From the IMG/VR virus record IMGVR_UViG_3300021964_000146, positions 1-43,542 of that record: a DNA stretch of 43,542 nt; one strand, given 5' to 3'. The notes under the pieces were generated by a model. It searched no databases. It saw nothing but the letters and a program-made list of their open reading frames with translations, and was not told where the DNA came from. Below are positions 8,725 to 31,100 of the stretch, one piece after another. Within the stretch, counting starts at the first letter, position 1. Every line of letters starts with the position of its first letter. The position numbers were made by a program, and so were the translations under genes. Origin of the DNA: a virus.

Positions 8725-8728
8725 GGCA

Positions 8729-9541: not shown

Positions 9542-9571
9542 TCTATAACCCTTGTTTTACCTTTTCAGGTA

Positions 9572-9579
9572 TATTTATA
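9572..9579 (-). promoter_or_regulatory. Late promoter TATAAATA for the gp13-gp17 block
   Basis: A perfect TATAAATA on the minus strand in the 52-base gap upstream of gp13. The predicted start of transcription is about 25 bases before the ATG. It separates the fibre region from the conserved neck/terminase module. Confidence 0.8.
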
Positions 9580-9593
9580 ATAAAAAATTAGTC

Positions 9594-10475: not shown

Positions 10476-10484
10476 TCATTCCCC

Positions 10485-11405: not shown

Positions 11406-11430
11406 AAAAATCTCCTAATTATATCAATTA

Positions 11431-13875
11431 TTAAAATGTGCCGCCATCAATTGCTGTAACTGTAACATTACCCGAAGATACTGCAAAGTTATCAGAACTG
11501 AATGAAGCAGAACCAATATTTGATGTAGATGCTAATTCACCTGCGATTGTTAAAGTATCGCCTGAGAATGTTGCGTCAACACCTTCACCACCTAAAATTG
11601 TCATAACACCACCAAGTGAGATTGTTGATGTTGTTGAACTATCATCTGCAAAAGTTATTGTAGAGTTAGATAGTTTAGCATTTGGTATTGAACCTGCTAA
11701 TTTAGCTGCCTCAATCGAACCTGCTAACATAGCATTTGTAATACCTAAAGCTTTAACTTGTAAAGCATCACTTGATACTTCGATAGAACTATCATCTACT
11801 GCAACATCTAATTGGTTACCTGTTTTAGTTAAAGCATCACCAGCACTAATCTGACCTGCACCAGAGAATTGTGAGAATGTGATGTTTGTTGTACCAAAAG
11901 TAGGAACTCCATTATGTGTTGCAACATAACCGTTATCTGCATTACTTGTACCTTGTTCTACAAAGAAGAAAGTACCGCCAGTTAACTCAGCAGCTGTGTC
12001 TGCATCTGGAGCTCTCGTTAATACGAAAGCAGTAGAACCATCACCTACTGTAGTTACTGTGTAAATACCGTTTTGTGTTTGTGTTGTTTGGTCTTTAACA
12101 AGAACTCTATCACTTGCACTTGGTGTAACACCGTCTATTGATAATGCACCGTTTGATGAAGCGGTTAAAGTACCTGCGCCGTTATCGTATGTCGCTGATA
12201 AGTTACCTGTTGTAGCAACTGCAACTGATTCTTTAACATCTAAACCGTTTACAACACCGTCAACATATGCTTTGTTAGCTGCGTCATTATCAGCAGTTGG
12301 TGTTGATACATTAATAATTTTACTGTTATTAACATCAACATCACCTGTACCGTTAGGGTCTAATACTAAATCGCCATTAGCGTCTGTAGATGAAATTGTG
12401 TTGCCATTAACTCGTATATTATCAACATCTAATTGAGTTACGCCTGCGATAGATGTACTTGAAGCTCCAAGAGCAACTTCAGTTGAACCGAAAGTAACTG
12501 AACTATTTGTTAACGAACTATTGCCAATATTTGATAATGTGTTTGAACCACCACTAATTGTTTTGTTTGTTAATGTTTGTGCATCATCTAAATCTACTAA
12601 TGTTGCATCAGAAACAGCTGTATTGAACTCAGCAAATGTTCCTGTTACAGTAGCTTCAGATAAATCAACTGTTAATGTATTACTTGCACTATCAATTGTT
12701 TTATTAGTAAGTGTTGCTGTTGAAGAAGTTGAAACTAATCGAGCATCACCACCAGTTCCTGGTAATGTTAAGGTGTTAGAAGCAGCTTCTGAATGAGGAG
12801 CACCAATAACTGTTTGTGCATGAGCATTACTTGATTCACAATACAATAATATTTTTGAAACAGTTGAACCATCATTTTTAAGGTCTAAAACACCTGGTGT
12901 TACTGTTAGAATATCATTACCACCAATTCTTACATCAATTTGGTCATCTGTATCTGCTGTGATTGAAGTATCGCCGTCCGCATCTAACTTCAATTCTGTG
13001 CCATTCATGTCTAGGCCATTAAATACAGCATTGTCGTCAAAGTCAATACTAATAGTATCACCTGTAACAGCAGTATTAATACCTGTACCACCTGTAATTT
13101 TTAATGTATCGTTTAATAAATTAATAGTAGCTGATGTAGAACTTTCATCAACGATAGTTAATGTAGTTGCAACATTGACTGTACTTGCAGCTGTTAAACG
13201 ACCTTGTTGGTCAACTGTAAATGTAGGGATAGCAGTAGTAGAACCATAAGAACCTGGTGTTACTGCCGTGTCATCTAAGTCAATTGAAATATCATTATTA
13301 GAAACAGTTGTAGTGATACCTGTATCACCTGTGAAATTAATCGTTTCACCTGTACTTACAGAGTCATTTGTACCTACATCAGCACCTATAGAGAGAGTTT
13401 GTGTGACTGTGCCGAATGAAAGGTTACCAGAACCGTCTGTTTGTAAGAATTGACCAGAAGAACCATCGCCATCTGGAAGAACAAAAGTGGTTGTACTTGT
13501 TACTGCGTTAGGAGCTTTTAACGCAATATAATTTGTGCCGTTATTTGTTCCTTCATTTAATTTTAATGAACCGCCTACAGTTGTAGAATTACCTATGTTT
13601 AGCGTATCAATTGCTAAATTTGAATCTACTGTTAAAGCTGAACTTGCTGTTAGTGTACCATCTACATGGTCTAATTTATCTACGAAATATTGGCCACCTA
13701 TTACAGTGACATTGTTTGCATAACCATCACCGCCGACACCACCTTCACCAATAAACAGTCTATCACCGTTATTGCCTTGGGTACCTGTTCCATAAGTATA
13801 TGCTAATTCACCGAGGTATAAGTCCGACGGAGCTGAAGTATTTGCACTTCTTTTAATTTGAATAATTGTTGACAT
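11431..13875 (-). CDS. Large modular tail fibre protein
   Basis: This 814-residue fibre protein begins STIIQIKRSANTSAPSDLYLGELAYTYGTG, the same kind of N-terminal domain as its downstream neighbour. A long Thr/Ser/Asp/Gly beta region has two 'LTNKTI' modules. It is followed by AANKAYVDGVVNGLDVKESVAVATTGNL and DRVLVKDQTTQTQNGIYTVT (roughly residues 530-620), a domain widespread in phage fibres. Next come 'NAMLAGSIEAAKLAGSIPNAKL' repeats and a final ...AIDGGTF. The C-terminal 'GG(T/N)F' is shared with the small gene just upstream. It is the largest repeat-type fibre of this block and probably a main side- or long-fibre component. Confidence 0.8.
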   Translation of the reverse strand: MSTIIQIKRSANTSAPSDLYLGELAYTYGTGTQGNNGDRLFIGEGGVGGDGYANNVTVIGGQYFVDKLDHVDGTLTASSALTVDSNLAIDTLNIGNSTTVGGSLKLNEGTNNGTNYIALKAPNAVTSTTTFVLPDGDGSSGQFLQTDGSGNLSFGTVTQTLSIGADVGTNDSVSTGETINFTGDTGITTTVSNNDISIDLDDTAVTPGSYGSTTAIPTFTVDQQGRLTAASTVNVATTLTIVDESSTSATINLLNDTLKITGGTGINTAVTGDTISIDFDDNAVFNGLDMNGTELKLDADGDTSITADTDDQIDVRIGGNDILTVTPGVLDLKNDGSTVSKILLYCESSNAHAQTVIGAPHSEAASNTLTLPGTGGDARLVSTSSTATLTNKTIDSASNTLTVDLSEATVTGTFAEFNTAVSDATLVDLDDAQTLTNKTISGGSNTLSNIGNSSLTNSSVTFGSTEVALGASSTSIAGVTQLDVDNIRVNGNTISSTDANGDLVLDPNGTGDVDVNNSKIINVSTPTADNDAANKAYVDGVVNGLDVKESVAVATTGNLSATYDNGAGTLTASSNGALSIDGVTPSASDRVLVKDQTTQTQNGIYTVTTVGDGSTAFVLTRAPDADTAAELTGGTFFFVEQGTSNADNGYVATHNGVPTFGTTNITFSQFSGAGQISAGDALTKTGNQLDVAVDDSSIEVSSDALQVKALGITNAMLAGSIEAAKLAGSIPNAKLSNSTITFADDSSTTSTISLGGVMTILGGEGVDATFSGDTLTIAGELASTSNIGSASFSSDNFAVSSGNVTVTAIDGGTF

Positions 13876-13887
13876 TTATCTTAGCTC

Positions 13888-14160
13888 CTAAAAGTTTCCG
13901 CCATTGAATATAATTGTACCTGTATTGGTTTCAATGGTCGTTTTTGTTACAAATTTATCACTTGGGGCATCATATTGTAATAAGGCGCCATCGGTAAGTG
14001 TACTAGAATCAACATCTGTTAAACTTCTAAGTCTGTTAACATTCTGTACAGACAAATTTGTACTAGGGACTTGTACGGATACTTGTTGTGGTCCCGCTGA
14101 AGTTGAGGAGTTAATATTTGCTCTAACTCCGCCAGTTTGATTAATAACTGCTTTAACCAT
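13888..14160 (-). CDS. Small fibre-associated structural protein
   Basis: The 90-residue product contains RLRSLTDVDSSTLTDGALLQYDAPSDKFVTKT, a 'L.DVD...L.dG..LqYD...dKfv' module found throughout marine phage fibre proteins. It ends IIFNGGNF, echoing the ...DGGTF terminus of the 814-residue fibre encoded immediately downstream (12-base gap). It is the first gene after the late promoter at 14185-14192 and probably leads a fibre operon. It could be a fibre tip, a chaperone or a short decoration protein; the sequence does not decide. Confidence 0.65.
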   Translation of the reverse strand: MVKAVINQTGGVRANINSSTSAGPQQVSVQVPSTNLSVQNVNRLRSLTDVDSSTLTDGALLQYDAPSDKFVTKTTIETNTGTIIFNGGNF

Positions 14161-14184
14161 TAATGGTTCCTCTCTCTTTTGTAA

Positions 14185-14192
14185 TATTTATA
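14185..14192 (-). promoter_or_regulatory. Late promoter TATAAATA for the 14.2-9.6 kb fibre block
   Basis: A perfect TATAAATA on the minus strand in the 59-base gap between 14160 and 14220, with a predicted leader of about 19 bases. It would drive the four fibre genes down to 9594. Confidence 0.8.
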
Positions 14193-14219
14193 AAGAAAAA
14201 ATACTGAGGAAAAGATTTA

Positions 14220-14555
14220 TTATACTTTAGGATTGACAGTTATAATGCCTTCAATCACTCTTGTGACTGTACTATCTGAGGTTTTTGTGATATAAACATC
14301 ATAGACATATCTGGATGGCGCATCTAGGGCTGCGGTTTGTGTGTCTGTTAATGATAAAGAAATGACACCTGTGGTGGTGTCACTAGCAATTGTAGTTGTA
14401 ATAGTTGTGTATGTTGAAGACCCATAAGCATTGGCCATTTTGGCCTCTGCTGTGTAACCGTCTAAATCAACTGCATCTCCAGATGAGTTGGTAACTGTTA
14501 CATCTGAGGTAAAAGTTGCCCCTTGGTCTATTCTAAGATTCGCTACTGCTGCCAT
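14220..14555 (-). CDS. Ig-like/BppU-N-like virion protein
   Basis: The 111 residues follow the pattern of N-terminal beta-sandwich domains of phage baseplate/fibre proteins (BppU-N-like): DQGATFTSDVTVTNSSGDAVDLDGYTAEAKM, then ISLSLTDTQTAALDAPSRYVYDVYIT, then RVIEGIITVNP. The arrangement 'GatF...vt...G..vDL.Gyta' and 'l...Yvydv...' is well preserved. Here it is a stand-alone domain, so it is probably a small virion decoration or adaptor. It overlaps the upstream gene by 23 bases, and a GAAGG ribosome site lies inside that gene. Confidence 0.7.
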   Translation of the reverse strand: MAAVANLRIDQGATFTSDVTVTNSSGDAVDLDGYTAEAKMANAYGSSTYTTITTTIASDTTTGVISLSLTDTQTAALDAPSRYVYDVYITKTSDSTVTRVIEGIITVNPKV

Positions 14556-14757
14556 TGAATTGTTTTATACCTTCTCCGATTTTTTCATTGTAGTATTTTG
14601 TCAATACATCAATCTTTTCCAATTCAATTTCATGTCGCACTTTAGAAGTTTGTAACTCTTGTCTAGCTGCTATCGTGTTTCTTAACTCTAACGGCAACAC
14701 CTCTAAATCATAATCTTTGCCGTCTATTGATATAACATTCTTTGGTTGTTCACTCAT
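14533..14757 (-). CDS. Small DUF6447-like protein
   Basis: The 74-residue product begins MSEQPKNVISIDGKDYDLEVLPLELRNTIAARQEL and continues as a charged helix. The pattern '(I)DGk.Y.le.L..e.r......' followed by a coiled helix resembles the DUF6447 family of small phage proteins of unknown function. This is motif resemblance only. It lies 2 bases after the gene at 14760 and overlaps the following Ig-like gene by 23 bases, so all three are probably translated from one late transcript. Confidence 0.6.
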   Translation of the reverse strand: MSEQPKNVISIDGKDYDLEVLPLELRNTIAARQELQTSKVRHEIELEKIDVLTKYYNEKIGEGIKQFNGSSSES

Positions 14758-14759
14758 AA

Positions 14760-14969
14760 TTATAACTTTTTGTTTTCTCTTTTTAATTGTTGAATTAATT
14801 TATCTTTTGTCAATCTTTTATCTAATTCAACACCAATTTTTCTGCCAAGTTTTTCAATCTCAGCTTTTGTTTTTTTCTCTAAGCCTTTTAAGTCTAATTT
14901 TTCTGCCTTTTTAGTCAAAACTAATGGCTTAGGAAAAATAAAATTTTTAATTTTTTTAAAGATATTCAT
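14760..14969 (-). CDS. Small Lys-rich protein with SAP/LEM-like helix-turn-helix segment
   Basis: The 69-residue, strongly basic protein has about 19 Lys. Residues 1-22 are hydrophobic/basic (MNIFKKIKNFIFPKPLVLTK). Residues 33-66 (KTKAEIEKLGRKIGVELDKRLTKDKLIQQLK) look like the short two-helix fold of SAP/HeH/LEM-type DNA-binding domains ('tk.eL...lg...Gi.ld...tK..Li..l'). It could bind DNA or serve as a virion-internal basic protein. It is the first gene after a perfect late promoter (14987-14994), with GAGGAC as its ribosome site. Confidence 0.6.
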   Translation of the reverse strand: MNIFKKIKNFIFPKPLVLTKKAEKLDLKGLEKKTKAEIEKLGRKIGVELDKRLTKDKLIQQLKRENKKL

Positions 14970-14986
14970 AATTTGTCCTCTATGGT

Positions 14987-14994
14987 TATTTATA
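14987..14994 (-). promoter_or_regulatory. Late promoter TATAAATA
   Basis: A perfect TATAAATA on the minus strand in the 40-base gap downstream of the dioxygenase genes. The predicted start leaves a leader of about 12 bases that just retains the GAGGAC ribosome site of the gene at 14760. It restarts late transcription after the dioxygenase cluster. Confidence 0.75.
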
Positions 14995-15009
14995 ATAGAT
15001 TATCTGTAA

Positions 15010-15708
15010 TTATTTCATTTCTTCAAATGTTAATGGTTTTGCATCATGTATAGTAGTTTTTTTAACAGCTGTAGGTTTCCAAATTTGTTTAAAATTGAAA
15101 GATACTGATATTCTCCATGATTTTTGACCTTTTTCTTTACTTGCATTAACATCTACTTCATGCGTTAACCAACCTGGAAACATTATTAATCTACCAGGTA
15201 TAGATTTGTAATGTACTTGGCTCAAATGTTTTTGCCATTGTTCTGGTTTTTCTTTTATAATTGGTTGGTCCATAATTTTTTGAGGAGCTGGGTCGCTAAA
15301 CCAAATATTACCTGAATTTTCAGGAACTTGGATATAATATACGCCTGACCAGAGAGCGCCAGGATGTACATGATTTTTATTATGAGAACCTTTATAGTTT
15401 ACATTTGCCCACATATTATCTATCATAGGAATTGTATCAGTATTATATTCTTCATGTTTAAAAATATCATTTTGCATTTTAAACAATTCACTTACAAGGT
15501 CTTTAAATTCTTTTTTTTGGTGCATTGTAACTGCACTATGCCAACCTGTTGTATTTGACCTGAATATTCCTTTTTCATCTTCTTTTTTCCATTTTAAAAT
15601 ATTTTTAATTAATTCTTTGTTTAATGCTTCAGAATTTTCAACATCTTTAAAATATATTCTTGTTGGAAACCAAAACTCAGGAGTTGTGTTAAAATTTTTA
15701 TCAGACAT
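15010..15708 (-). CDS. 2OG-Fe(II) oxygenase, TIGR02466-like
   Basis: I place the start at the ATG at 15708 (232 residues, MSDKNFNTTPEFWFPTRIYF), because an AGG ribosome site precedes it and the longer frame runs into the upstream gene. The protein has HVHPGALWSGVYYIQVP (His near 113 and 115), SGNIWFSDP, GRLIMFPGWLTHEVDVN (His near 183) and SWRISVSFNF (Arg near 199). These match the 'H.HP...lSGvyY ... fP.wl.H.V ... RiSisfN' signature of the TIGR02466 putative 2-oxoglutarate/Fe(II) oxygenases. The metal site reads HxH at the usual HxD position, as I recall is normal in this family. The substrate is unknown. It forms a pair with the PKHD-type gene 8 bases upstream. Confidence 0.8.
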   Translation of the reverse strand: MSDKNFNTTPEFWFPTRIYFKDVENSEALNKELIKNILKWKKEDEKGIFRSNTTGWHSAVTMHQKKEFKDLVSELFKMQNDIFKHEEYNTDTIPMIDNMWANVNYKGSHNKNHVHPGALWSGVYYIQVPENSGNIWFSDPAPQKIMDQPIIKEKPEQWQKHLSQVHYKSIPGRLIMFPGWLTHEVDVNASKEKGQKSWRISVSFNFKQIWKPTAVKKTTIHDAKPLTFEEMK

Positions 15709-15716
15709 TATAAAAC

Positions 15717-16325
15717 CTATACAAATGTAGGACCGTGAATCCAACCAACAATAGCCAGTCTTTCACCTTTTGTAACTTTAGTAATTTTATGTGGAATAAA
15801 AGAAGGATAAATGATACAAGTTCCTTTTTGACGCAAAGCCATTTTATCTACCTTAGAACCTATAAATTCAATATCACCACCCTCATAGTCATCACTATCA
15901 CTTAACTGAATTGTAAAACTTAATTTTCTGTGACAAACTTTATTTCCCAAATCAGTGTGCCAATCGTAATGTCCGCCCTTTTTGTATCTCATAATCATAG
16001 GGGTATCATTATCTAAAAACCCAGCTAGATTAAACTTAAATCTAGCGCCATTAGCTTGTTGAGCTAATTCTAAAACTTTAGTAATTGGCCAACCTTGTTG
16101 GTTAATTGGACAAGTTTGTTGTTCAACAAACCTTACTTTTTTATTTACACCACCGCCAATTGTTTCACCAGCTAACCACAATTCTTCTACTAATTTATCT
16201 TTAATAGCATTGCATTGCTCTTCATTAAAAAACTGTGTATGTAAAATTGAACAAAATTGATTATTTGATTTTATTTCTACCTGCTGTTCTTTCTTTTCCT
16301 GAACATCATCATCTTTTTTTGTCAT
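15717..16325 (-). CDS. 2OG-Fe(II) oxygenase, PKHD-type
   Basis: The 202-residue protein has the full double-stranded beta-helix iron site: HYDWHTD (His near 123, Asp near 125), LSFTIQLSDSDDYEGGDIEF, IIYPSFIPHKITKVTKGERLAIVGWIHG (His near 179, Arg near 189 for 2-oxoglutarate). This is the arrangement of PKHD-type (PiuC/prolyl-hydroxylase-like) dioxygenases, which hydroxylate protein side chains or small molecules. A GAGGAG ribosome site precedes the ATG. A consensus-like sigma70 promoter lies 33-61 bases upstream. The first 22 residues are charged and non-homologous. The substrate cannot be inferred from sequence. Confidence 0.85.
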   Translation of the reverse strand: MTKKDDDVQEKKEQQVEIKSNNQFCSILHTQFFNEEQCNAIKDKLVEELWLAGETIGGGVNKKVRFVEQQTCPINQQGWPITKVLELAQQANGARFKFNLAGFLDNDTPMIMRYKKGGHYDWHTDLGNKVCHRKLSFTIQLSDSDDYEGGDIEFIGSKVDKMALRQKGTCIIYPSFIPHKITKVTKGERLAIVGWIHGPTFV

Positions 16326-16357: not shown

Positions 16358-16386
16358 ATAATATCACAATTATTAGTTATTGTCAA
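16358..16386 (-). promoter_or_regulatory. Sigma70-type promoter in front of the dioxygenase pair
   Basis: On the minus strand TTGACA (16381-16386) is followed by exactly 17 bases and TATTAT (16358-16363). The -35 is a perfect match and the -10 matches at 5 of 6 positions. Transcription would start near 16351, about 26 bases before the PKHD-type ATG at 16325. It overlaps the last codons of the DUF6445 gene. No TATAAATA is present here, unlike at the other operon heads on this strand. Confidence 0.7.
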
Positions 16387-16957
16387 TGGTTTCCTGTCTT
16401 CTATATAAATCAAAAAATATAGTTAAAACCAATCTACCACTATATTTATCGTCTTCATTTCCAAAGTTTCCTTGTGGTTGATGTGGTAACTGAGAGTTGT
16501 ATAATACAAATCTATTGTATTTGTTTGACACTGTTTCAAAATGATTTCTTTCCTTATCGTATATCAATGTACCTGTATCATTTTCAGGATTAGGATGTAA
16601 ATAAATTACACCTGCATATCTGATATCCGAACCGGTTGTATCATCTTTGTGTAAAAAAGTTTGTGTGTTTTTGTATGTTAGAGAAAAACTAAATTGAGCC
16701 GTGTGTTTTAAATATGAATCATCCATTGTATCAAGGCCTTGCATTTTCATAACAGCCTTGTCTACCTGTTTGACCATATAGTCATACATTGATTTTGTAA
16801 AATCTAAATTGTGAAAATAGTCTGTACGAATACCAGGAAATCCACCAACACCTTCTGTATGTTCGTGTGGTTCATAGAATTTGAATTTAGTTAAAGCTAA
16901 ATCTCTAACTTCATCTGGATTTTCAAAAAAATCATCTAATATAATATAATCACTCAT
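16373..16957 (-). CDS. DUF6445-like putative 2OG-Fe(II) oxygenase-fold protein
   Basis: The 194-residue product has the DUF6445 look: MSDYIILDDFFENPDEVRDLAL, then GGFPGIRTDYF, then FLHKDDTTGSDIRYAGVIYLHPNP, and RFVLYNSQLPHQPQGNFG followed by RLVLTIFFD. Candidate iron/cosubstrate residues in cupin order are His 103 and Asp 105 (HKDD), His 159 (LPH) and Arg 175. This suggests a third dioxygenase fold next to the two above. The family is uncharacterised, so enzymatic activity is inferred. It follows the hypothetical gene at 16968 by 10 bases and probably shares its late promoter. Confidence 0.7.
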   Translation of the reverse strand: MSDYIILDDFFENPDEVRDLALTKFKFYEPHEHTEGVGGFPGIRTDYFHNLDFTKSMYDYMVKQVDKAVMKMQGLDTMDDSYLKHTAQFSFSLTYKNTQTFLHKDDTTGSDIRYAGVIYLHPNPENDTGTLIYDKERNHFETVSNKYNRFVLYNSQLPHQPQGNFGNEDDKYSGRLVLTIFFDLYRRQETIDNN

Positions 16958-17636: not shown

Positions 17637-17644
17637 TATTTATA
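17637..17644 (-). promoter_or_regulatory. Late promoter TATAAATA
   Basis: A perfect TATAAATA on the minus strand in the 50-base gap upstream of the hypothetical gene at 16968-17612. The predicted leader is about 18 bases. It divides the glycine-rich fibre region from the dioxygenase region. Confidence 0.8.
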
Positions 17645-17662: not shown

Positions 17663-19300
17663 TTATGACCACTGAAGTGATACGCCGTGTATTTTTACTG
17701 TATTATTTGCCAATGCTAATTTCCATCTCATAGACTGACCTGTAGGTTGTCCTGAAATGTCTGCTTGACCAGTAAGAATTCTTTGTCCACTAGAACCTGT
17801 TATATAACCACTATCTGAAAGAGTAGCGTTTGTAAAAGTTGTACCACCATCTCTACTTATACTAGCTATAATATCTGTATTTAAAGTTGGTGTATCTACA
17901 TTTTCTTCAAAAACAACTATTCTAGCATTTGTAGCTTCAGATGCAGCTGTAAATGATGTAGAAACAATTGTAGTAGCTAATGTTGTTGCTCCTGCTTCTG
18001 GTCCATTAAATGATGAATATAAAAACACATAACCGTCAGCGTCTGCCCATTGGTTTCCTCCACCACTCAAAGAGGTAAAAGAACCTGGATTACCTGAACC
18101 TTCTCCGTATTCACTAAACAATGGAATACCAACAGGACCACCTGCTTTTGCTGAAATTGTTGGTTGATTAGGATTAGATGGTTCTACAGATGATGTGTTA
18201 TCAGTATCATTTGTTGCCCCTGCGCCACCTTGAATTGTTACTCCGCCTGAAACGGCTGGATTACCAATGTAAGATGAACCTCCGCCGCCGCTAGCTGCGT
18301 GACCAGCGGGACCAGGACCTGTACCACCGCCGCCATAAAAACCTGCACCGCCAGCTGCTGATGAGTGAGTATTAGTGCTACCTAAACCTCCGTTCAGATA
18401 TGAACCGTTTGTTGCTGTACCTTCATCACCGCCAGCTTGACCACCACTTGACTGGCCGCCACCTCCAGCAGCTGTTCCAGTATAAGGAGTGCTGCCTGCT
18501 TCTGATTGAGATGCTGTTTGAGAATCTCCTCTTAAACCTGTTAATCCGCCTCCATTACCGCCATAACCAGGATTTGGACCTAAAGCGCCGGCGCCGCCAC
18601 CGCCGCCTGCAATTAATAACATTTCTGGAGTAGGTTCATTAACACCTGTTGTATTTCCATTTACAATAGCAGATAAACCTCCTGCACCACCAGCCCCCCA
18701 TGAATCTTGGCCTCTCGCATAACCGCCATTACCTAATGACCTCACACCACCATTCGGTCCTCCTGGAGCTGGGTCTGAACCATGAGAATTTGAAAGTCCG
18801 CCTTCACCTACTACAATTGATAAAACTTGTCCGCCTGTAACTGCTAATTCTCCGTAAGCAAAACCACCTGAGCCACCTGAGTCGAACTGACCTGCACCTG
18901 AAGGCGTTGAACCGCCTCCAGCACCTATCACAAAAGCATTTAAAGCTGTAACGCCTGTTGGTACAGTATAAGTTCCGTAAGTACCTGAACCATAAGCTGG
19001 GTTAGTACCTGCTGTTGATGTATCTGGTTCTGTTACAGATGATGTAGTAAAACCTGCTGATGCTATTATAGTTGTATCTGCATTTAAATAATAATCGTTT
19101 GATGCGTTATAAGTATCGTTTGAACCTTCAGCTTCGTCTGTACCTGATTCATCATTAAATTCATCTACAACACCATCAACAAGATTAAATACAGTTAATC
19201 CCTCATTAACGGCCATTTTGAAACCTAAAAGAGAGATGTTATAATTAGCATTATCTAATTCTGTAGAATTTATGTTAGCGTCTGTAATTTTAGTTGTCAT
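17663..19300 (-). CDS. Glycine-rich tail fibre/adhesin paralogue A
   Basis: This is the shortest (545 residues) of three paralogues. About residues 22-65 carry NISLLGFKMAVNEGLTVFNLVDGVVDEFNDESGTDEAEGSND. About 85-120 carry VTEPDTSTAGTNPAYGSGT...VPTGVT. Residues about 125-435 are glycine-rich with repeated GGGG, GAGG and GGSG runs, as in polyglycine-II or glycine-rich adhesin tips. The last 105 residues (FEENVDTPTLNTDIIAS to KIHGVSLQWS) are nearly identical to the other two copies. Such glycine-rich domains bind receptors in some T4-like adhesins; that role is inferred here. A GGAG ribosome site precedes the ATG. It lacks the N-terminal attachment modules of paralogues B and C. Confidence 0.8.
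   Translation of the reverse strand: MTTKITDANINSTELDNANYNISLLGFKMAVNEGLTVFNLVDGVVDEFNDESGTDEAEGSNDTYNASNDYYLNADTTIIASAGFTTSSVTEPDTSTAGTNPAYGSGTYGTYTVPTGVTALNAFVIGAGGGSTPSGAGQFDSGGSGGFAYGELAVTGGQVLSIVVGEGGLSNSHGSDPAPGGPNGGVRSLGNGGYARGQDSWGAGGAGGLSAIVNGNTTGVNEPTPEMLLIAGGGGGAGALGPNPGYGGNGGGLTGLRGDSQTASQSEAGSTPYTGTAAGGGGQSSGGQAGGDEGTATNGSYLNGGLGSTNTHSSAAGGAGFYGGGGTGPGPAGHAASGGGGSSYIGNPAVSGGVTIQGGAGATNDTDNTSSVEPSNPNQPTISAKAGGPVGIPLFSEYGEGSGNPGSFTSLSGGGNQWADADGYVFLYSSFNGPEAGATTLATTIVSTSFTAASEATNARIVVFEENVDTPTLNTDIIASISRDGGTTFTNATLSDSGYITGSSGQRILTGQADISGQPTGQSMRWKLALANNTVKIHGVSLQWS
17702..17770. repeat. Direct repeat in fibre C-termini (copy 1; copy 2 at 20172-20240)
   Basis: The 69 bases 17702-17770 are identical to 20172-20240. 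A further 60-base identical block is 17864-17923 versus 20334-20393. Both encode the C-terminal domain of glycine-rich paralogues A and B, in the same orientation and about 2.47 kb apart. The third paralogue (around 21960-22140) encodes nearly the same protein with many synonymous changes. The pattern suggests recent duplication or gene conversion between A and B. Confidence 0.9.
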
Positions 19301-19316
19301 ACTTCTATTTATCTCC

Positions 19317-19913
19317 CTATGCCGGCAACTCTCTAATTTGTATTGCTACTCCAGATGCCGGAGCAGTTGTAAAGGTTAAAGTTGTTCCAGAAATAGTGTA
19401 ATCGTTAGTTGGTTTTTGACAAACACCGTTTTCAAATACTAAAACCGAATCAACCGTGACACCACTTGTTACTGTAAAATCTGTTGTTGTTCCGTCACCT
19501 GTTGCATTTCTTGTAACAGATGCTTTTACAATATTACTTGTTTGAATCCATTTAACTTGTGTAGCTGAATTATCATAAACTAAAAATCTGTCATTCGTAG
19601 CAGCTCTTTCTGCCAATTCGTTTAATGATGTGAATGAAGCATCACCTACAATAGCGCCGTCATATGCAATACCTAAGTAAATTACAAAAACAATTTCGCC
19701 ACTTGCTGGGGCTTCTGTAAATGTGATTTGAGTACCGCCATTTGCTAAATTATAGGCAGATGATGGTTCTTGTACCACACCTGAAACGGAAACTAAAATT
19801 GAACTTGTAGAAGCAACTGTATAATCTAAAGTGAAAGTAACTGTGCTACCATCAGCTGTTAGACTTTGCCTTTCAAATGCTCCGTATTGTGGTTCTCTAC
19901 CTATATAAGCCAT
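19317..19913 (-). CDS. Fibre protein built of two TGDGSTT-type modules
   Basis: The 198-residue protein is essentially two copies of one beta module joined by a linker. Copy one (about residues 14-80) runs SLTADGSTVTFTLDYTV...VVQEPSSAYNL...ITFTEAPASGEIVFVIYLG. Copy two (about 132-198) runs NATGDGTTTDFTVTSG...VLVFENGVCQKPTNDYTISGTTLTFTTAPASGVAIQI. The linker FTSLNELAERAATNDRFLVYDNSATQVKWI resembles fibre junctions. The first residues MAYIGREP match the MPYIGKNP start of paralogue C, suggesting a shared attachment motif. Probably a fibre adaptor or short fibre co-assembled with the glycine-rich proteins. Confidence 0.75.
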   Translation of the reverse strand: MAYIGREPQYGAFERQSLTADGSTVTFTLDYTVASTSSILVSVSGVVQEPSSAYNLANGGTQITFTEAPASGEIVFVIYLGIAYDGAIVGDASFTSLNELAERAATNDRFLVYDNSATQVKWIQTSNIVKASVTRNATGDGTTTDFTVTSGVTVDSVLVFENGVCQKPTNDYTISGTTLTFTTAPASGVAIQIRELPA

Positions 19914-19925
19914 TTAATTACCTTA

Positions 19926-20129
19926 CTATTCGTTTACCTGTGCAACTGTTTTACCAAAGTATCCAGTTGTTTCGTCAATTTTTCTTGTTTCGCCCTCAGC
20001 AGTTGCATCATATACACCGTCAGCAGGTAATTGTACAATTACTGTGCCATCAGGTTTTTTTAATTTTGCACCTGTTTGAGGAGAAGCATTAACTTTTGCT
20101 TTTGTTTCTGATAATCTTTCAACTGCCAT
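19926..20129 (-). CDS. Small hypothetical protein in the fibre block
   Basis: The 67 residues include LKKPDGTVIVQLPADGVYDATAEGETRKIDETTGYFGKTVAQVNE, a short beta-rich chain with no recognised domain. It lies 3 bases after glycine-rich paralogue B and 12 bases before the two-module fibre protein. It is therefore translated from the same late transcript and is probably a minor virion component or fibre accessory. A small fibre chaperone is another possibility. Confidence 0.55.
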   Translation of the reverse strand: MAVERLSETKAKVNASPQTGAKLKKPDGTVIVQLPADGVYDATAEGETRKIDETTGYFGKTVAQVNE

Positions 20130-20132
20130 TTT

Positions 20133-21896
20133 TTAACTCCATTGTAAAGATACACCATGTATCTTAACCTGATTATTTGCCAATGCTAATTTCCATCTCA
20201 TAGACTGACCTGTAGGTTGTCCTGAAATGTCTGCTTGACCTGTTAGAATTCTTTGTCCTGAACTACCGGTAACATAACCACTATCACTTAAAGTAGCAGT
20301 TGAGAAAGTTGTACCACCATCTCTACTAACTGAAGCTATAATATCTGTATTTAAAGTTGGTGTATCTACATTTTCTTCAAAAACAACTATTCTTGCTGTT
20401 GAAGCTTCTGCTGAAGATGTAAAGGCTGAAGATACAATTGTTGTTGAAGTTGCTGAGGATGTTACAGGAGATGATGTTAATAAAACATAACCGTCTTCAC
20501 CATTTTGTGATGGTTGAGGGTCAGCTACAGATGTTGTACCTTCACCAATATTTCCTAAAGGACTAAAAGGACCATCTGCTAAGCCATTTACACTTGGACT
20601 ATTACCACCTTGTATTGCGCCTTCACCAAATCCATCTGCAAAAGGACCTGAGTTTCCACCTTCACCTGCATATGTGCCTCCACTTGAAACAAGTGGGTTG
20701 CCGTGATATGATGAACCGCCGCCACCACTGCCGTGACTTGATGTTGAACCGTTTGAAGGTCCAGGCGTATATGAGCCTCCGCCGCCGCCATAAAATCCAG
20801 AACCCCCACCACCGCCAGTGTGATTTGAACCTGAATCGCCGCCTATAAATAAATTTCCTGGATTTGCATTACCTTGTTGACTTCCTTGACCAGAAAGGTC
20901 GCCGTCAGCGCCTTGTCCGCCAGCTGTCTGTGAACCTCCACCACCAGTTGTTTCTCCGACCATAGCCGTTTGTGCTAGATAATCTTCTCCGCCACCATAA
21001 CCATGTAAACCTCCGCCGGCACCACCAAAACTTTTTTCCAGGTCACCACCTTGAGCGCCTGCACCGGCTCCGCCAGCACCCACAAGATAAACTTGAGGAG
21101 CAGCTGCGTTTGCTGTTTCAGAACCTGTAATAGTTGATGGTACAGGTGAAGTGAAAATTGCCGAAGCTCCTCCGCCGGAACCTCCATAACCATCTCCATT
21201 TGGACCTGAACCGCCGCCGCCTAATGAACGACCTGATTCATAACCACCTGGTGAACTACCTGCTCTGCCACCTTCACCCACCATAATTCTTAATACATCT
21301 CCTCCTGTTACAGGAAAAGAACCGTATGCCATACCGCCGCCTGCGCCGCCACCATAACTTGCAACTGGACCAGCACTACCACCACCAGCACCAAAAACAT
21401 AACCCGTAAGTGTTGTAACGCCTGTTGGTACAGTAAATGCACCTAAAGTACCTGAACCATAAGCTGGATTAGTACCTGCTGTTGATGTATCTGGTTCTGT
21501 TACGGATGTTGTTGTAAAGCCTGCTGAACCACCACTTATATTTACGCCGTCATCTGTATTAGAGTTAATGTAATAATCAGAAGCTGCTACATATTTGTCG
21601 TTTGAACCTTCTGCCTCGTCTGTACCAGATTCGTCATTGAATTCATCCACAACACCATCTACTAAATTAAATACAGTTAAACCTTCGTTAACTGCCATTT
21701 TGAAACCTAATAAAGAAATATTAAAAGCATTTTTCTGTACATCAGATTCAATAACTGAAGTATCGACTGTAAGTTTACCAGAAGCTATAGCTGCACTAGG
21801 AGAAACATCAGCGTTAACAATAGAACCGTCTTCAATTTTAGAACTATCTACTGCGCCGTCTGCTATTGCACCTTTTGTTACTTTTGTTAATGCCAT
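20133..21896 (-). CDS. Glycine-rich tail fibre/adhesin paralogue B
   Basis: The 587-residue protein begins with an 'AKL-type' repeat head (MALTKVTKGAIADGAVDSSKIEDGSIVNADVSPSAAIASGKL). The shared LLGFKMAVNEGLTVFNLVDGVVDEF segment follows (about residues 58-95), then PDTSTAGTNPAYGSGTLGAFTVPTGVT. A glycine-rich body (about 150-465) is dense in GGGGS, GGAGG and GSGGG. The last 105 residues are shared with A and C and end KIHGVSLQWS. The different head suggests that heads are exchanged independently of the body. The inferred role is a distal, host-contacting fibre. An AAGG ribosome site is present. Confidence 0.8.
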   Translation of the reverse strand: MALTKVTKGAIADGAVDSSKIEDGSIVNADVSPSAAIASGKLTVDTSVIESDVQKNAFNISLLGFKMAVNEGLTVFNLVDGVVDEFNDESGTDEAEGSNDKYVAASDYYINSNTDDGVNISGGSAGFTTTSVTEPDTSTAGTNPAYGSGTLGAFTVPTGVTTLTGYVFGAGGGSAGPVASYGGGAGGGMAYGSFPVTGGDVLRIMVGEGGRAGSSPGGYESGRSLGGGGSGPNGDGYGGSGGGASAIFTSPVPSTITGSETANAAAPQVYLVGAGGAGAGAQGGDLEKSFGGAGGGLHGYGGGEDYLAQTAMVGETTGGGGSQTAGGQGADGDLSGQGSQQGNANPGNLFIGGDSGSNHTGGGGGSGFYGGGGGSYTPGPSNGSTSSHGSGGGGSSYHGNPLVSSGGTYAGEGGNSGPFADGFGEGAIQGGNSPSVNGLADGPFSPLGNIGEGTTSVADPQPSQNGEDGYVLLTSSPVTSSATSTTIVSSAFTSSAEASTARIVVFEENVDTPTLNTDIIASVSRDGGTTFSTATLSDSGYVTGSSGQRILTGQADISGQPTGQSMRWKLALANNQVKIHGVSLQWS

Positions 21897-21920
21897 TTTA
21901 TTTTACCTTACTATTATTTA

Positions 21921-23915
21921 TTAAGCCCATTGTAAAGAAACACCGTGAATTTTTACTGTATTATTAGCTAACGCCAACTTCCATCTCATTGATTGGCCTG
22001 TAGGTTGACCACTTATATCGGCCTGACCTGTTAAAATTCTTTGTCCACTTGAACCTGTTACATATCCTGAGTCAGATAATGTCGCTGTGCTAAATGTTGT
22101 ACCACCATCTCTACTAACTGAAGCTATAATATCTGTATTTAAAGTTGGCGTATCTATATTTTCTTCGAACACTACGATACGAGCACTTGAAGCTTCAGAT
22201 GCGGCTGTAAAGGCTGAAGATACAATTGTTGTTGAAGTTGTACTAGCAGTAGCAGATGTGGGTGCATTATCAAATAATACATAACCGTCTTCACCTGACC
22301 CCTGAGGGCTTGGATCAACACCCCCCTCATTTGTACCTGCAACATAAAAAGGACTTGATACACCGCCACCTTGAGAGGTGCTACCGTCTTCAGTTGTACC
22401 AGAAGTTATTTGAGGATGTCCGTAATATGATGAACCTCCACCTGCGCCGCCGTGAGGTGCGTTGTAGTGCCAACCGCCTCCTCCGCCGCCCCAATAACCG
22501 GCACCGCCACCCATACCGTAAGTATTTCCCGGTCCTGGTTCGACATATGTTGTACCTACACCACCTTGTAAAAATCTTCCTGATTGAGCGTTAGTTGCTC
22601 CTTGGCCGCCAGCTGACTGTGAGCCGCCACCGCCAGCGTCACTACTGTTTGTTCTACCTGTTTGTGCTACATCACCACCAGCATAACCTTGTAAACCTCC
22701 GCCGGCGCCGCCAGGCACACTATTATTTGCCCCACCGCCAGCAGCAACTAGATAAACTCCTGGAGCATAAGGTGAATTATTTTGCATTGTTGAAAATGAA
22801 GCTACAGCTGGATTAAAAATACCTGAAAGACCTCCGCCAGACGCCCTTACATTATTAGTACCTGGACTATTTGGTTCAGCAGACGAACCAGCGCCACCTG
22901 TATAACTATATCCATCAAATCCACCTTGTGGGTCTGATTCACCCCCCACACCACCTTCTCCTACCACAACTTCAATTGTTTGGCCAGGAGATACTGCAAG
23001 CGTTCCAGATGAAAAGCCGCCGCCACCAGATGTTGTATCAGTTTGATGGTGTCCTCCACCAGCACCCCAAGTATAAACATTCACTTCTGTTACACCAGTG
23101 GGCACAGTAAATGAGCCAAAAGTACCTGAACCGTAAGCTGGATTAGTACCTGCTGTAGATGTGTCTGGTTCTGTTACGGATGTTGTTGTAAATCCAGCAG
23201 AAACAGTTGGTATTGAAATACCAGAGTCAGTAGTATTGTTAATATAATAATCGGAAGCTGCTACATATCTGTCGTTTGAACCTTCTGCCTCGTCTGTACC
23301 AGATTCGTCATTAAATTCATCCACAACTCCATCAATTAAATTAAAAACTGTAAGGCCTTCATTTACGGCCATTTTGAAACCTAATAAAGAAATATTAAAT
23401 GCGTTTGTATCTTGTTGTGAAGTATCAATTGCTCCCCAACTACCATCACCAGCAAGATATACACTTGAAGAACCTGGTTGTGAAATTGAAGATGTAGCAA
23501 CTTTACTTGCTGTTGTAATTTGGGCTAATTTTGTATCTGCAATAGCAGCTGATGAATTAATATCTGCATTTACTATTGAACCATCGGCAATTTTTGCTGA
23601 GGTTACAGCACTATCTGAAACTGTTGTGATTTGTGAATCGAAAACACCAGGATTTAAAACTACAATTGTATGTCCGTTTGTGGGTGCTGAAGTAAAAGTA
23701 ATTCTTCTTAATCTATTTGCGCCGTCTAAACCTACTGTATAATCTGTTGTATCAAATTTTCTTACATCATTTACAAATACTTGAAGGTCATTGCCTGAAC
23801 CGGCAGGAATATTACTACTAACATCAAAAGTAGTAGTTGAGCCATCACCTGTGAATGTATCTTTTTCTGTAATACTCCTTCTTATATTTGAAGGATTTTT
23901 TCCAATATAAGGCAT
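21921..23915 (-). CDS. Glycine-rich tail fibre/adhesin paralogue C
   Basis: This is the largest paralogue (664 residues). Residues 1-100 contain a TGDGSTT-type module (FTGDGSTTTFDVSSN...LQVFVNDVRKFDTTDYTVG). Residues about 100-165 have 'SAKIADGSIVNADINSSAAIADTKLAQI' repeats, and LLGFKMAVNEG follows near 180. The glycine-rich body is about 245-545. The conserved end (FEENIDTPTLNTDIIASVSRDGGTTF to KIHGVSLQWA) closes it. The N-terminal MPYIGKNPS resembles MAYIGREP of the gene at 19317. It appears to combine the modules that A and B lack. A baseplate-attached adhesin role is inferred. Confidence 0.8.
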   Translation of the reverse strand: MPYIGKNPSNIRRSITEKDTFTGDGSTTTFDVSSNIPAGSGNDLQVFVNDVRKFDTTDYTVGLDGANRLRRITFTSAPTNGHTIVVLNPGVFDSQITTVSDSAVTSAKIADGSIVNADINSSAAIADTKLAQITTASKVATSSISQPGSSSVYLAGDGSWGAIDTSQQDTNAFNISLLGFKMAVNEGLTVFNLIDGVVDEFNDESGTDEAEGSNDRYVAASDYYINNTTDSGISIPTVSAGFTTTSVTEPDTSTAGTNPAYGSGTFGSFTVPTGVTEVNVYTWGAGGGHHQTDTTSGGGGFSSGTLAVSPGQTIEVVVGEGGVGGESDPQGGFDGYSYTGGAGSSAEPNSPGTNNVRASGGGLSGIFNPAVASFSTMQNNSPYAPGVYLVAAGGGANNSVPGGAGGGLQGYAGGDVAQTGRTNSSDAGGGGSQSAGGQGATNAQSGRFLQGGVGTTYVEPGPGNTYGMGGGAGYWGGGGGGWHYNAPHGGAGGGSSYYGHPQITSGTTEDGSTSQGGGVSSPFYVAGTNEGGVDPSPQGSGEDGYVLFDNAPTSATASTTSTTIVSSAFTAASEASSARIVVFEENIDTPTLNTDIIASVSRDGGTTFSTATLSDSGYVTGSSGQRILTGQADISGQPTGQSMRWKLALANNTVKIHGVSLQWA

Positions 23916-24318: not shown

Positions 24319-24347
24319 TATTTATACTTCTATTTATACTATTTATA
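24319..24347 (-). promoter_or_regulatory. Three tandem late promoter elements TATAAATA
   Basis: Three perfect TATAAATA copies lie on the minus strand at 24319-24326, 24331-24338 and 24340-24347 in a 45-base gap. The two distal copies would give transcripts retaining the AGGAAG ribosome site of the gene at 23940. The nearest copy would start transcription within or just after that site. They probably drive the whole 24.3-17.7 kb fibre block. Confidence 0.8.
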
Positions 24348-25178: not shown

Positions 25179-28100
25179 TTAACTGTACGCTATAACTCTT
25201 AAATCTTTAATTTTTGGAATGAATACCGTATTAGACGATTTCATAACAATTTTTAATTGTAAATTTTTAAAGTCAGCAATATTATTTACATTAATGGTTC
25301 TTTCAGTAAATATATTAATTGCATCTTTAGTAGTTATTGCAAAATTTGTATTTGTATATTTTAATTTATTTAAATCAGCATCATCATCCCACGCTCTATA
25401 GTAAACTTTAACATCTGAATTTTGTGGAATATTTGCATCAAATAAAATTCTTAAATTTTCAGCAGATGTATCTAAAACAAGTGTTCTTGTAATATAGTTT
25501 GCTAAGTTAGTTGAACCTGTAGGTGCATAATCATCTACGAAACTGTCAAATTGTTTGATTGCCCAATTTAAACTGTCTTTTCTAACACCCATAACACCAG
25601 ATGAAACTGTTTCTGTAGCGTTTGCGTCAAGTGTAATAGAACTAGCACCTACAGCTGATACTGTACCTATAACTTTTTTCTCTAACCTTTCAGCAGTACC
25701 GCCATCAGGAGTTACAACTTCGTAAACAGTTGTAGAAATAATTTTATCGCCTACATCTATTCTGCTTGTATTATCAGCTGAACTATTAATTGTTACACTG
25801 CCTGTGCTTGATGTGTGAGTACCATTTAAGTTAAACTCATACCAATCATTTACAACATCTAGGTAAACTGTATTTGTAGTAGGTAAATCTGCAAAGGCAC
25901 TGCCTAATGTAATTGTTACTTTATTGCCGTCAGAAGATTCAGCATAATGTGTATTATCAGAAACTTCTTGTACATCATCAATTGCATATGTGCCGTTAAT
26001 TTTACTTGCTAAGACACCTTCAATTTTTAGATTTGCACCAATTTGAGCATTTGCTAAAATGTTATCAGCTGCATCAATCCAAGTAACTAATTGTCCGTTA
26101 CCATCTGAATTTTCTGAAATTTCAATAACACTTCTACCAACAATCTTAAATGCAACACCTGTTTGAGCAGATAATCCATTAGCTGTTAATTCTAATGATG
26201 TGTTGTTTGTAATTGAATCTACAACACCGATTGCTGTATCACCAACTCTAATTGTATCACCAACTTTAACTTCGGTTTCAAAAGATGTTCCCGAACCTGT
26301 TATGGTCGTTGTACCTGTTCCAGATGTAATTGTACCTGTACCTGTAATGAAACTATCAGCATCAGCCACCGTACCATCTTCTAATAAAACTCTTTCATCC
26401 ACTGTATCTACATTTAAGTCACTAGCAGATTTATTATCAATTAAGTTAGATATTGCGTAAACAGATTTTTTCTGTAAGTCAATTACTGGCGAAACATTTG
26501 TATTTGTTGATGTCATTTGTACACTAAAAGTAAGCGTTGGAGTTTTTACTTGTGGTGTTGAACTTAATAGAGTTTCGTTTTCATAACTCTTAATAACTTT
26601 TCTATTTTTAAAATCGTAATTTTGATTTGGAACAAATGGTAAATTGCCAGAAGCTGTACCTGTTGTATCAGTAGCATTTACAACATAAGATAAAGAAGTG
26701 TCTGCTAATACAACATCACTACATTTATAATACATTGTATCCATGTTTAATTGTCTTGTACATCTTACAGCACTTCCGCCATAAAAACCTTTAACAAAAT
26801 TAGCAGTAGTACCTTCTAATAAAGAATCACCATTTGCGTCTGTTGTTTGTAATGTAATTAAGAATGAATCTTTAGTTATACCTGTACCTGATACTGTATG
26901 TGAACCATTTAACAATGTTTCTGGTGCACCTGTTGTTGAACTGCCTGTACCATACAATCCTTTAGCCACGCCAGAAATAACTACTATATCACCTGAAGTA
27001 AATCCGTGATTTCTAGCTTTTACTCTAACAGTTGTAGAACTTGTTGTAAATTCAAAAGGATTTGAACCTAAAGTAAATGTTTCAGGTGGTAATGCTTTTA
27101 AAGGAACACTAGCTGTTTGTGAAATGTTAAATGTACATTGATTTAATTTAAATTTCATATCCAATAATGGACTTTGTACAAACTCTTGTGTATTTTGAGA
27201 AGCATATAAAGCACCTGTCAAAGGCTGTTTAGCAATAACATTTGTAGTTATAATATCCGTTTGACCTAATTCTGATACAAACATTTGACAACCTGGTTCA
27301 TCAACTTTAGCTACAATTGCATATGTTTCACCATCTCTTAAATAAACAGGAGAATGAAACTTGAAATTAGTTGCTGTTGCGCCATTTGTTGATGTATTAA
27401 TCTCATCAATTCTTTTTACAACAGTTGTAAATGGAATAATTCTACTTGTAGGCACACCATTGTCACACACTCTTAATTCTACAATAACAGGTCTACTACC
27501 CGCTTCTGAGAAATATAAATCAACAGATGACACAAATACACCACCTGGTGATTCTACAGTAAATGTTTGTGCTAGAGGGTCATGGCCGCCTCCGCCTCCG
27601 CCGCCGCCTCCACCGTTATTTGGTGGTGGTAAACTTCTGACAAATCTTGAGCCGTTTGATGTTCTTCTAATTGAACGCTCTGCAAAAACTCTATCTTGTG
27701 CAAATCGAATGCTACGAGAATTTACAACAGTAGCTTCTTTTTCTAATGTTAATCCTACTGCATTATAAATTGCTGTACCTTTACTGTCAAATAAATCATC
27801 ACTATTAGATAAATTATCTGTTAGTGTTATTGTTCTTTCACCTGTTCTAAAAGTATTTGCTGGTATATTGAATACACCTACAACTTGACCTGCTGTATCT
27901 GTTCTTAGAGTATCACTTGTGGATTTCATAGTAGGCGCTGTTGTTGTGCTTGTGCCATCATTTATACTTGTAAGTGTAGCTGTATTAAAATTATTTCCAC
28001 CTGTGTCAATTGTACCTGTAACTGTTTCACCGATTGCAAAACCATTTTTGATGTTTACAATAAATGTATCAACATTGTCTGAAACTACAGCATTTGCAGC

Positions 28101-31100
28101 TGCAACAACACCACTAGCTTGTAATCTTAATAATTTTCCTCCATCATTTGATGGATAAGCTGATGTTGAATAAGCATCAAATTTATCTATTGTAGAACCA
28201 TCTACATTAGCTAATGTTAAAGTTGTGCCACTTACACCTGTTACTTTAAATGTTTTTAAGTTTAATTGTTTTGAGTGATTACTACCCAAAGATGTAATAG
28301 TTGTTGTTACATTATTAGGCAACTGATTTAAGTTTGATACAATGCTAGGATTAGCTCTGTTTGCATCAAAGTTATACAAATAAACATGGTGACCGGGTAA
28401 AATACCAGAAGCACTATTTACTGTTAATGTAAAACTAGAAGCGCCTGCATCTGAGGTAATATTAGTAATTGCTGATACAGTTGTTGCTGTATGTGTATCA
28501 TTTTTAATTACATCACCAATTGAGAATGCTTGTTGTACAATACCATTTGCATCTGTTCTTGCTGGGTCATCAGCTAGAATTGTACCCTCAGCAGTTTCTA
28601 ATGTAAAGTTTAATGAAGCTGCACCTGCAATTTTTGTTAAATTAAATTTGTCCGCTGGTGTAATATTATTATTAACATCATCTTTATCAAAGAAACCATA
28701 AAACTTAGTATCAGGTTTTAAATTTCTTGCAATGAATGTTACAGGTTTTTGTCTTATATATGGAATGTATGATACATCTACAACTCTATCTCCGTAATTA
28801 ATAGAATTAGTTGAAGTTACAGCTGATGTTCTAATACCGTTTCTAGTTGCTGTACCTGTAAATGTTGTAATTGTGTTTTGAAAAATAGCTCTTCCAGCCT
28901 GAAACTGTCCACCAACATCTCTTGTAGATGAACCTGTCCAGTTATTTTGCCATTCATTCCATTGTGTTCCTGTTACACCTAATTCATCAGCAATAAATCT
29001 AATTGCATCTAAATTATTATCGTCTGTAACTGTTAAATCAGGTCTTCTATCTGTTTCTTTCCAATTATCTCCTTCAGGAAATAGTGAAACTTCTCCTCTA
29101 AATGCACCAATTTTATATGGATTGACATCAATAGCTCTTGTAGCATAAGGATTAAAGATAAATGATGTTTCAGAATAAGGTAATGTAATAACATCACCTG
29201 TTCTTTGATAATTTTGTGTTGCTCTTTGAGTACCTGATTGTAGGTTTTCAGCAATCTCTAACGCATCTGTAAAGTGCATTGGTCTCAATTCTCTATTTTG
29301 ACTGTCAATAGCAATTTTATAGTCTGTATTTTTTACATCACCTACATTGTGACCAGTAAATTGGTCAACAATAAATCCGTTTTTGAATTTATCTAAACCT
29401 GTAACGGCATCTTTGATAGATAATTGTTCAGTTTCTTTTTCTAATAAACTTAAACTAGAATAATATTCTAAGTTTGATATTCTTCTTTCTAAACTGCCAA
29501 TATCTCTCATAGTATATCTTCTATTATCTCTTTGTTTAATAGAAACATCACTAGCTTGTTTTGTATAAGCAGGTAAGAATAAAGTAGCAATTACCATACC
29601 TGATTTTGGATCCGAAGGTTCTTTAGGGTCTTCAGCAGGTGTGCCACCTAATACATTAATTTGTCCTGTACTATCAACAAATACTTTATCAGCTCTTGGT
29701 AAATAATTTGCTAACGGAGTATTGAAATCGGACCCAATTTTTGGAATTTGTGGTGAAAATGTGTTGAGTCCTTCTACAACTGGTCTGTAATCAATAACAT
29801 CATGTAAGAAAATTTCTTGTGTTGTGCCGTCTGTTTGCGAAACTTTAAATGATGGAATATCTTCGTAGTTAAGACTGCCATAACTATCAACACTAAAGTA
29901 ATTACCTGAACCACTGTAAGAAAAATATTTGTAAGTTACACTTAGAGCACCTGTAATTGCACCTGCGCCCTCTTTTAGTGTCAAAGCACCTTTTTGATAA
30001 TGAGTTGGTCTTTGACCTGTATCTAAGTTGAATCTATCTGTTACATCAACTGAATTTGATGATGAATAAGCTGAGAAATTACCAGGCGTCATTGCCACAG
30101 AAGTAATGCTATAAACATCAGCATGATTTAATAAAACATTTTTAGCCGTTACATTTTTAGCACCAGTAATTGTAATTGTGGCTGTTGTTAGTGTTTTTGT
30201 TTTTTCTCTTGCAGCTAAATTAATTTGTAATACAGTTGTTATAAGTGTATAACTTCTGGATGCTGAAAGGCCTGTAATTGTTACAGTTTTTCTATTTGAA
30301 TCATCATCAAAAGAAATATCTGAGGCTGTTAAGTTAACAACTTCATTTGTAACATTATCAAATAATGTGTAGTTATTTAAATCTGAGTCTGATAAGAAAG
30401 ATTCATTTGTGTTAGTTAATGTAGATGACCAATCGCCTGAACCATCAGCTGTGTTTGTAATTACTCTACGAATTTGATGTTGGCTTGAAAAGTTTACATC
30501 TTGTCCTGATGCACTATCAAAACCTCTTAAAGATTTTGTGTTATTTAAACCTGTTCTGAAAAGTAAGTCTGTATTGTCAGGTTCATAAACTCTTGTATTA
30601 CCTCTTTCAATGGTTAATGTGCCAGTTGATGTAATAAGGTCACTTGTCAATTCTCTATCTAAAGTTAATGTATTGTTATCTGTAATTGATGCAACATAAC
30701 CTACAAAGTTATCACCTAAGACTACTGCATCACCAACTTTAAAATCTAGTGTAAATGTTGTACCTGTACCTGTAATCGGGTCGCCACCTGAACTTGTAAT
30801 TGAACCGTTTGCCGAACCAGCGACCACAATTTTATCGCTTGTTTGTTCTGCATTTGCATAAAAATTAATTACACCTGTTTGACCTGCGTCTGTAACCCAC
30901 TTTACATCTCTCTCAACACTTTTACCACTATTTAATTTAATATCAAATAATGATAATCTATATAAAGAAAATGATGAGTAACTTGAACTGTGTAATTGAA
31001 ATGAACGAACTTTAGCCGTACCAATTAAACCTGATTTATTAATATTTGTATCAGTACCTATTGTTGGTGGTGTATCATAAACATCTGAACCGTCCCATAA

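Follow-up and report, generated by a model that had tools for sequence, protein, structure and literature searches.

The window analysed here, the whole 43,542-nucleotide virus record IMGVR_UViG_3300021964_000146 (43.5 kb), encodes homologues of gp13 to gp20 of T4-like phages, baseplate genes and a 2,421-residue DUF4815 protein, and carries on its minus strand 3 genes for glycine-rich proteins, paralogues A, B and C, which we consider candidate tail adhesins. All 3 are intact open reading frames (ORFs) with a common layout, in which an N-terminal head is followed by a segment of approximately 55 residues around LLGFKMAVNEG (N-core), a body containing 28% to 32% glycine and a C-domain of approximately 103 residues. 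The original prediction, made from the letters of this DNA, had described the LLGFKMAVNEG segment, the glycine-rich bodies and a near-identical C-terminal region (88% to 93% protein identity between the C-domains), and all of these were recovered.

21921..23915, minus strand: paralogue C, 664 amino acids (aa), with a 171-aa head, N-core (LLGFK), glycine-rich body and C-domain
20133..21896, minus strand: paralogue B, 587 aa, with a 56-aa head, N-core, glycine-rich body and C-domain
17663..19300, minus strand: paralogue A, 545 aa, with an 18-aa head, N-core, glycine-rich body and C-domain; modelled with AlphaFold2
21924..22232, minus strand: C-domain of C, almost the same protein with numerous synonymous changes
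20136..20444, minus strand: C-domain of B, 103 codons, holding the 69- and 60-base exact runs in common with A
17666..17974, minus strand: C-domain of A, 103 codons, predicted to form the second half of the beta-sandwich scaffold
22203..22260, minus strand: cluster of differences from the near-identical contig L008, where the body of gene C meets its C-domain; these 58 bp hold 9 of the 16 differences

At the protein level, the C-domains are 88% (A and B), 90% (A and C) and 93% (B and C) identical. The predicted exact DNA runs of 69 and 60 bases between A and B are indeed present, along with one of 35 bases; B and C share runs of 53, 43, 35, 32 and 29 bases, and the longest run common to A and C is 27 bases. 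Also as predicted, C encodes the same protein with many synonymous changes, its C-domain differing synonymously from that of A and from that of B by 41 codons, against 20 between A and B. The divergence is not uniform: 14 consecutive variable synonymous codons are identical in A and B (permutation P = 0.0019 for the C-domain and 0.0009 for both conserved blocks), and neither A-C nor B-C reached significance in the same test of synonymous-identity runs. In the N-core, B and C are the closest pair, with 90% identical nucleotides (78% to 79% for the other pairs). Thus, the divergence of the paralogues is mosaic, as gene conversion predicts, with the qualification that A and B are not the only special pair, since B and C are linked as well. 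The bodies are approximately 44% to 46% identical to one another. They also stand out in base composition (18000–23100), with a GC content of 48% to 49% versus 33% to 36% in the remainder of the same genes; because GC at third codon positions differs far less, this excess mostly stems from the glycine codons.

A scan of viral contigs, in which copies were counted with profiles of the N-core and the C-domain, yielded 68 loci with one to six copies each, all co-directional. All these relatives are metagenomic contigs, and the pairs compared are related. Single-linkage clustering of 90 distinct complete body-bearing copies, at chosen thresholds, sorted the heads into 33 clusters and the bodies into 38; 7 of the body clusters were paired with at least two head clusters, among the 13 multi-member head clusters 9 carried at least two bodies, and head and body similarity were hardly correlated across the 90 copies (rank correlation 0.06). 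At the same positions in contig L009, heads are 74% to 95% identical to those of the window at the amino acid level (95% for that of B), against approximately 41% to 46% for the bodies, and heads related to that of C occupy the same position in L009 to L012. Elsewhere, near-identical bodies follow unrelated heads: copies L048_4 and L060_518 share a body with 98% amino acid identity (mostly 95% to 100% at the nucleotide level), with heads 20%, N-cores 76% and C-domains 81% identical, and in L040_2865 and L068_10446 the bodies are 96% and the heads 13% identical. Furthermore, L026 and L032 are 93% to 96% identical in nucleotide sequence over approximately 15 kb, with the body of copy 1 replaced and copy 3 bodyless, and L063/L067, L025/L040 and L073/L068 likewise have closely related flanks around a body that is replaced or absent. 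Near-identical bodies behind unrelated heads, and near-identical phages with other bodies or with none, establish from sequence that bodies have been exchanged among related phages, with the heads staying in place. The original prediction had read the 3 different heads as exchanged. The heads of A, B and C do differ, but other phages carry a conserved version of each at the corresponding position, and we rejected exchange of heads, because the clustering points to position-specific heads and exchanged bodies. Breakpoints were placed in 46 pairs that differ by a replaced body and are not independent of one another: on the right, 33 fall between −2 and +3 aa from the C-domain start, and on the left, 30 fall 41 to 57 aa into the N-core. 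This sharpness is partly definitional, given that the breakpoints coincide with the onset of conservation.

Bodyless copies of approximately 214 to 240 residues occur naturally in several contig groups and recur in seven contigs. The AlphaFold2 model of the bodyless L032 protein, guided by 64 sequences, comprises a long helix (residues 72–96) followed by one beta-sandwich, made of N-core strands (102–133) and C-domain strands (138–238), with predicted local distance difference test (pLDDT) values mostly of 80 to 93 in the strands, most near 90. The body would enter this model at loop 133–138, close to which both the left and the right breakpoints of body replacement fall. N-core and C-domain are thus predicted to form one scaffold that takes up the body in a single loop. 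The bodyless model is similar to carbohydrate-binding modules, the best match being the mannan-binding CBM27 (E = 8e-4). For the body-bearing model of A, the top 20 PDB matches in Foldseek were all TNF-like plus glycine-rich domains of ALK/LTK (best E = 2.7e-6, probability about 1), at template modelling (TM) scores of only 0.20 to 0.32 over the query, so that the match may partly reflect glycine richness. Viral structure matches of this model include cyanophage and Caulobacter phage proteins, and no gp38 entry is among the 50 matches listed, glycine-rich motifs being present in the bodies. Among 70 relatives, Pfam recognised Gly_rich_2 in 34 and ALK_LTK_GRD in 13; paralogue C passes the PF12810 cut-off (28.4 versus 24.5 bits) and B has no Pfam match. 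An ALK/LTK-type glycine-rich fold is accordingly indicated for C by profile and for A by the low-TM fold match. The C-domain alone has weak relatives (29% to 40%) in Rhizobium phages, where the proteins carry a ConA-like lectin annotation, and in the Pelagibacter phages HTVC011P, HTVC028P and HTVC201P; searches of cultured phages with the N-core and with the whole bodyless protein returned no match.

Over 18,664 aligned bases, contig L008 differs from the window at 16 positions, and the clustering of these differences in gene C was equalled in none of 20,000 simulations of 16 random positions. In C of the window, six differing sites in a row (22236 to 22217) carry the same base as paralogue B, and in L008 they do not; the L008 allele matches neither A nor B, and a 29-base stretch of the L008 patch had no exact match in any other viral contig, so that this search gave no outside donor. 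The cluster is consistent with a short B-to-C conversion in the lineage of the window, which is the simplest reading; alternatively, L008 may have acquired the patch from an outside donor. Together with the clustered A-B identity, this cluster supports the gene conversion proposed in the original prediction.

The array has a defined place in the phage genome. The gp8 of the window shares 65.9% identity with its counterpart in Pelagibacter phage Mosig and 49.5% with that in HTVC008M, and its structural genes are closest, by sequence, to those of pelagimyophages. We regard the phage carrying the array as a T4-like marine phage, probably infecting SAR11. The gene adjoining gp8 in Mosig is annotated VrlC, and the host recognition cluster of pelagimyophages has been described as a hypervariable island of tail fibre genes between VrlC and gp14 (PMC7029224). 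Genes C, B and A lie in the corresponding position, between VrlC/DUF4815 and gp13-gp14, and are transcribed in the order C, B, 67-aa ORF, 198-aa ORF, A.

25179–32444: giant DUF4815/phrog_358 gene, bounding the array on one side
7939–9541: gp13/gp14, the other flank of the array
19317..19913, minus strand: between B and A, ORF of 198 aa that carries a T7-tail-fibre N-terminal-like domain (PF03906, E = 1.1e-08; phrog_18673, E = 6.7e-27) and resembles the heads
19926..20129, minus strand: putative 67-aa ORF straight after B (3-nucleotide gap), with no assigned function
24319..24347, minus strand: three TATAAATA boxes (T4-like late promoter) upstream of the C-B-A unit

The phrog_18673 tail-fibre domain is found in three separate minus-strand tail genes (10485–11405, 19317–19913 and 35318–36262), suggesting that head-like modules are re-used too. 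A 111-aa protein encoded at 14220–14555 (minus strand) is a possible fibre chaperone, its match (E = 2e-18) being to a PHROG of L-shaped tail fibre assembly. Right downstream of the adhesins lie three genes in a row that match 2OG-Fe(II) oxygenase-type families (15010–15744, 15717–16325 and 16373–16957, minus strand), the third mainly DUF6445; similar oxygenases occur near the adhesin copies of L026 and L060, and could modify tail proteins.

Spacing is tight for C, B and the ORFs that separate B from A, all co-directional and most with ribosome-site-like sequences. The window contains 13 TATAAATA boxes (6.7 expected), 12 of them on the minus strand; between C, B and A there is none on the coding strand, the next lying at 17637, after A. 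In L026, three adjacent adhesin copies (7938–15047) are located just before the large terminase gene and overlap with one another and with that gene at their stop and start codons, a position that represents a second site for the adhesin array in the L026 group. Within the window, which is only part of a genome, so that a recombinase could be encoded elsewhere, we found just short, weak inverted pairs and no notable inverted repeats flanking an invertible or phase-variable locus. Similarly, no reverse transcriptase (RVT_1) of the kind that diversity-generating retroelements require was detected in the records of the window, L008 and L026. Given the tight co-directional spacing and the lack of notable inverted repeats and of a reverse transcriptase, joint expression of A, B and C appears likelier than switching. 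The switchable tips of the original prediction are thus disfavoured, and its alternative of several simultaneous receptor-binding tips is what this gene organisation would suggest.

We propose that the phage co-expresses A, B and C as three tail adhesins, encoded in its host recognition cluster. In each, a position-specific head would probably dock the protein to a different baseplate or fibre partner, followed by a helix and by one beta-sandwich formed jointly by N-core and C-domain, with the body, a TNF-like plus glycine-rich domain of approximately 260 to 420 residues, held in one scaffold loop. By analogy with known phage tips, the body is likely the receptor-binding tip, and the three proteins would be located in the virion. 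Conserved scaffold halves, present in every copy and across many phages, flank the body, so that homologous recombination, which we infer to be the machinery, could replace, delete or move a whole body, recombining it between copies and phages with head and scaffold left intact, and the same recombination would homogenise the scaffold halves by gene conversion. The paralogy, the clustered synonymous identity, the breakpoint positions and the natural bodyless forms can be read directly from the sequences, and we regard the explanation as a whole, a scaffold with an exchangeable body, as probable. A more tentative extension, possible but rather doubtful, is that the scaffold halves, which conversion across the tandem copies would keep similar, serve as a recombination landing pad onto which a population-wide pool of tips is loaded, unloaded and moved among co-displayed adhesins.

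Several observations weigh against this proposal. Besides the partly definitional breakpoints and the low TM scores, the body-bearing model of A is of moderate quality (mean pLDDT 72, predicted TM score 0.64), and UvsX/RecA (PF00154) was not found in the records of Mosig, L008 and L026. Each of the three window bodies matched only one near-identical contig when searched in viral contigs, so that their own transfer is extrapolated from relatives. In the C-domain tree, which rests on a short and mosaic alignment, enforced orthologue pairs were disfavoured (approximately unbiased test, p = 0.067, 0.075 and 0.103), and orthology was not rejected. The bodies of the window, moreover, resemble each other (approximately 44% to 46%) about as much as those at the same positions in L009 (approximately 41% to 46%), as expected if an old tandem duplication had been followed by fast body divergence under selection, the ends being conserved for structure and no module being exchanged. 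Such divergence cannot produce bodies that are 90% to 98% identical in protein sequence behind unrelated heads, nor bodies that are unrelated or absent between flanks that are closely related; it is already contradicted for the family, and we consider it quite unlikely.

More weight, if still little, can be given to the possibility that the body is a spacer or shield and that the ligand is bound by the scaffold jelly roll, to which the CBM27 match of the bodyless model and the lectin annotation of the Rhizobium phage relatives would point. A conserved scaffold with an exchanged body is the reverse of what selection by a changing receptor would leave, and gp38 of S16 and PP01 and Pam3 gp24 use a glycine-rich tip (PMC12892980, PMC9608196), which makes this option unlikely. 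Assembly errors, with unrelated phages joined at conserved flanks or paralogues mixed, have to be considered for metagenomic contigs, all the more as, where the differences cluster, the C allele of the window has a run of 35 bases in common with B. Yet the flanks of body-sharing pairs are only approximately 65% to 75% identical and offer few shared words for joining, the bodyless form is present in seven contigs and the L008 allele at the cluster corresponds to neither A nor B; we judge an artefact very unlikely. Least plausible of all is a switching locus in which repeat recombination or inversion turns on one adhesin at a time: the long direct repeats of 69 and 60 bases between A and B could serve such a process, but every copy is a co-directional, intact ORF with a ribosome-site-like sequence, and the missing inverted repeats, reverse transcriptase and intervening late promoter boxes, as well as the overlapping genes of L026, speak against it.

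SAR11-type bacteria are hosts to abundant phages, and little is known of the way in which these match changes of the host surface. Under the scaffold-plus-body explanation, one predicted loop accommodates entire binding domains, and its occupied, swapped and empty forms are seen in related natural phages; body swapping would probably change bacterial recognition without rebuilding the tail. Tip exchange could then be read directly from metagenomes, and the bodyless form offers a natural scaffold for binding tests of isolated tip domains.

The host recognition cluster of pelagimyophages occupies the same genomic place as the array, and the plasticity described for it, in the portion of the report available to us, is at the level of genes rather than of a scaffold plus cassette, body exchange or bodyless forms (PMC7029224). 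In T-even gp38 adhesins (S16, PP01, T2), hypervariable loops separate the glycine-rich motifs of a polyglycine II sandwich (PMC12892980). The bodies described here also have glycine-rich motifs with variable segments in between and would, like gp38, serve tail-tip receptor recognition, a conserved frame carrying the varying specificity. However, gp38 caps gp37 as a protein of its own, present in single copy, whereas in A, B and C the body is an internal part of a longer polypeptide that also has a head and a C-domain, is predicted to lie inside a beta-sandwich loop and is moved whole, and the arrays hold as many as six copies. Work on distal tail fibres from 1998 reportedly found that T-even adhesin specificity is swapped by recombination at conserved motifs. 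The TNF-like plus glycine-rich extracellular domain of ALK/LTK (PF12810), matched by fold in A and by Pfam in C, belongs to eukaryotic receptor kinases, and the low TM scores and glycine-rich composition indicate a shared fold type at most, not a common origin. The myocyanophage tail fibre Pam3 gp24 (PDB 7YPX) resembles our adhesins in its alpha-helical docking part, TNF-like domain and glycine-rich tip, the latter proposed to bind the receptor (PMC9608196), at a weak profile match (E = 0.36); it is encoded by a single fibre gene with a separate chaperone, and no beta-sandwich scaffold around its tip is described in the accessible part of the report (PMC9608196). The literature searched, from which most subscription papers fell outside coverage, yielded no description of a scaffold-plus-insert arrangement. 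Tail-tip exchange and glycine-rich tips are already known; as far as this literature goes, what is new here is a tandem set of scaffolds in which a whole domain is exchanged in one loop.

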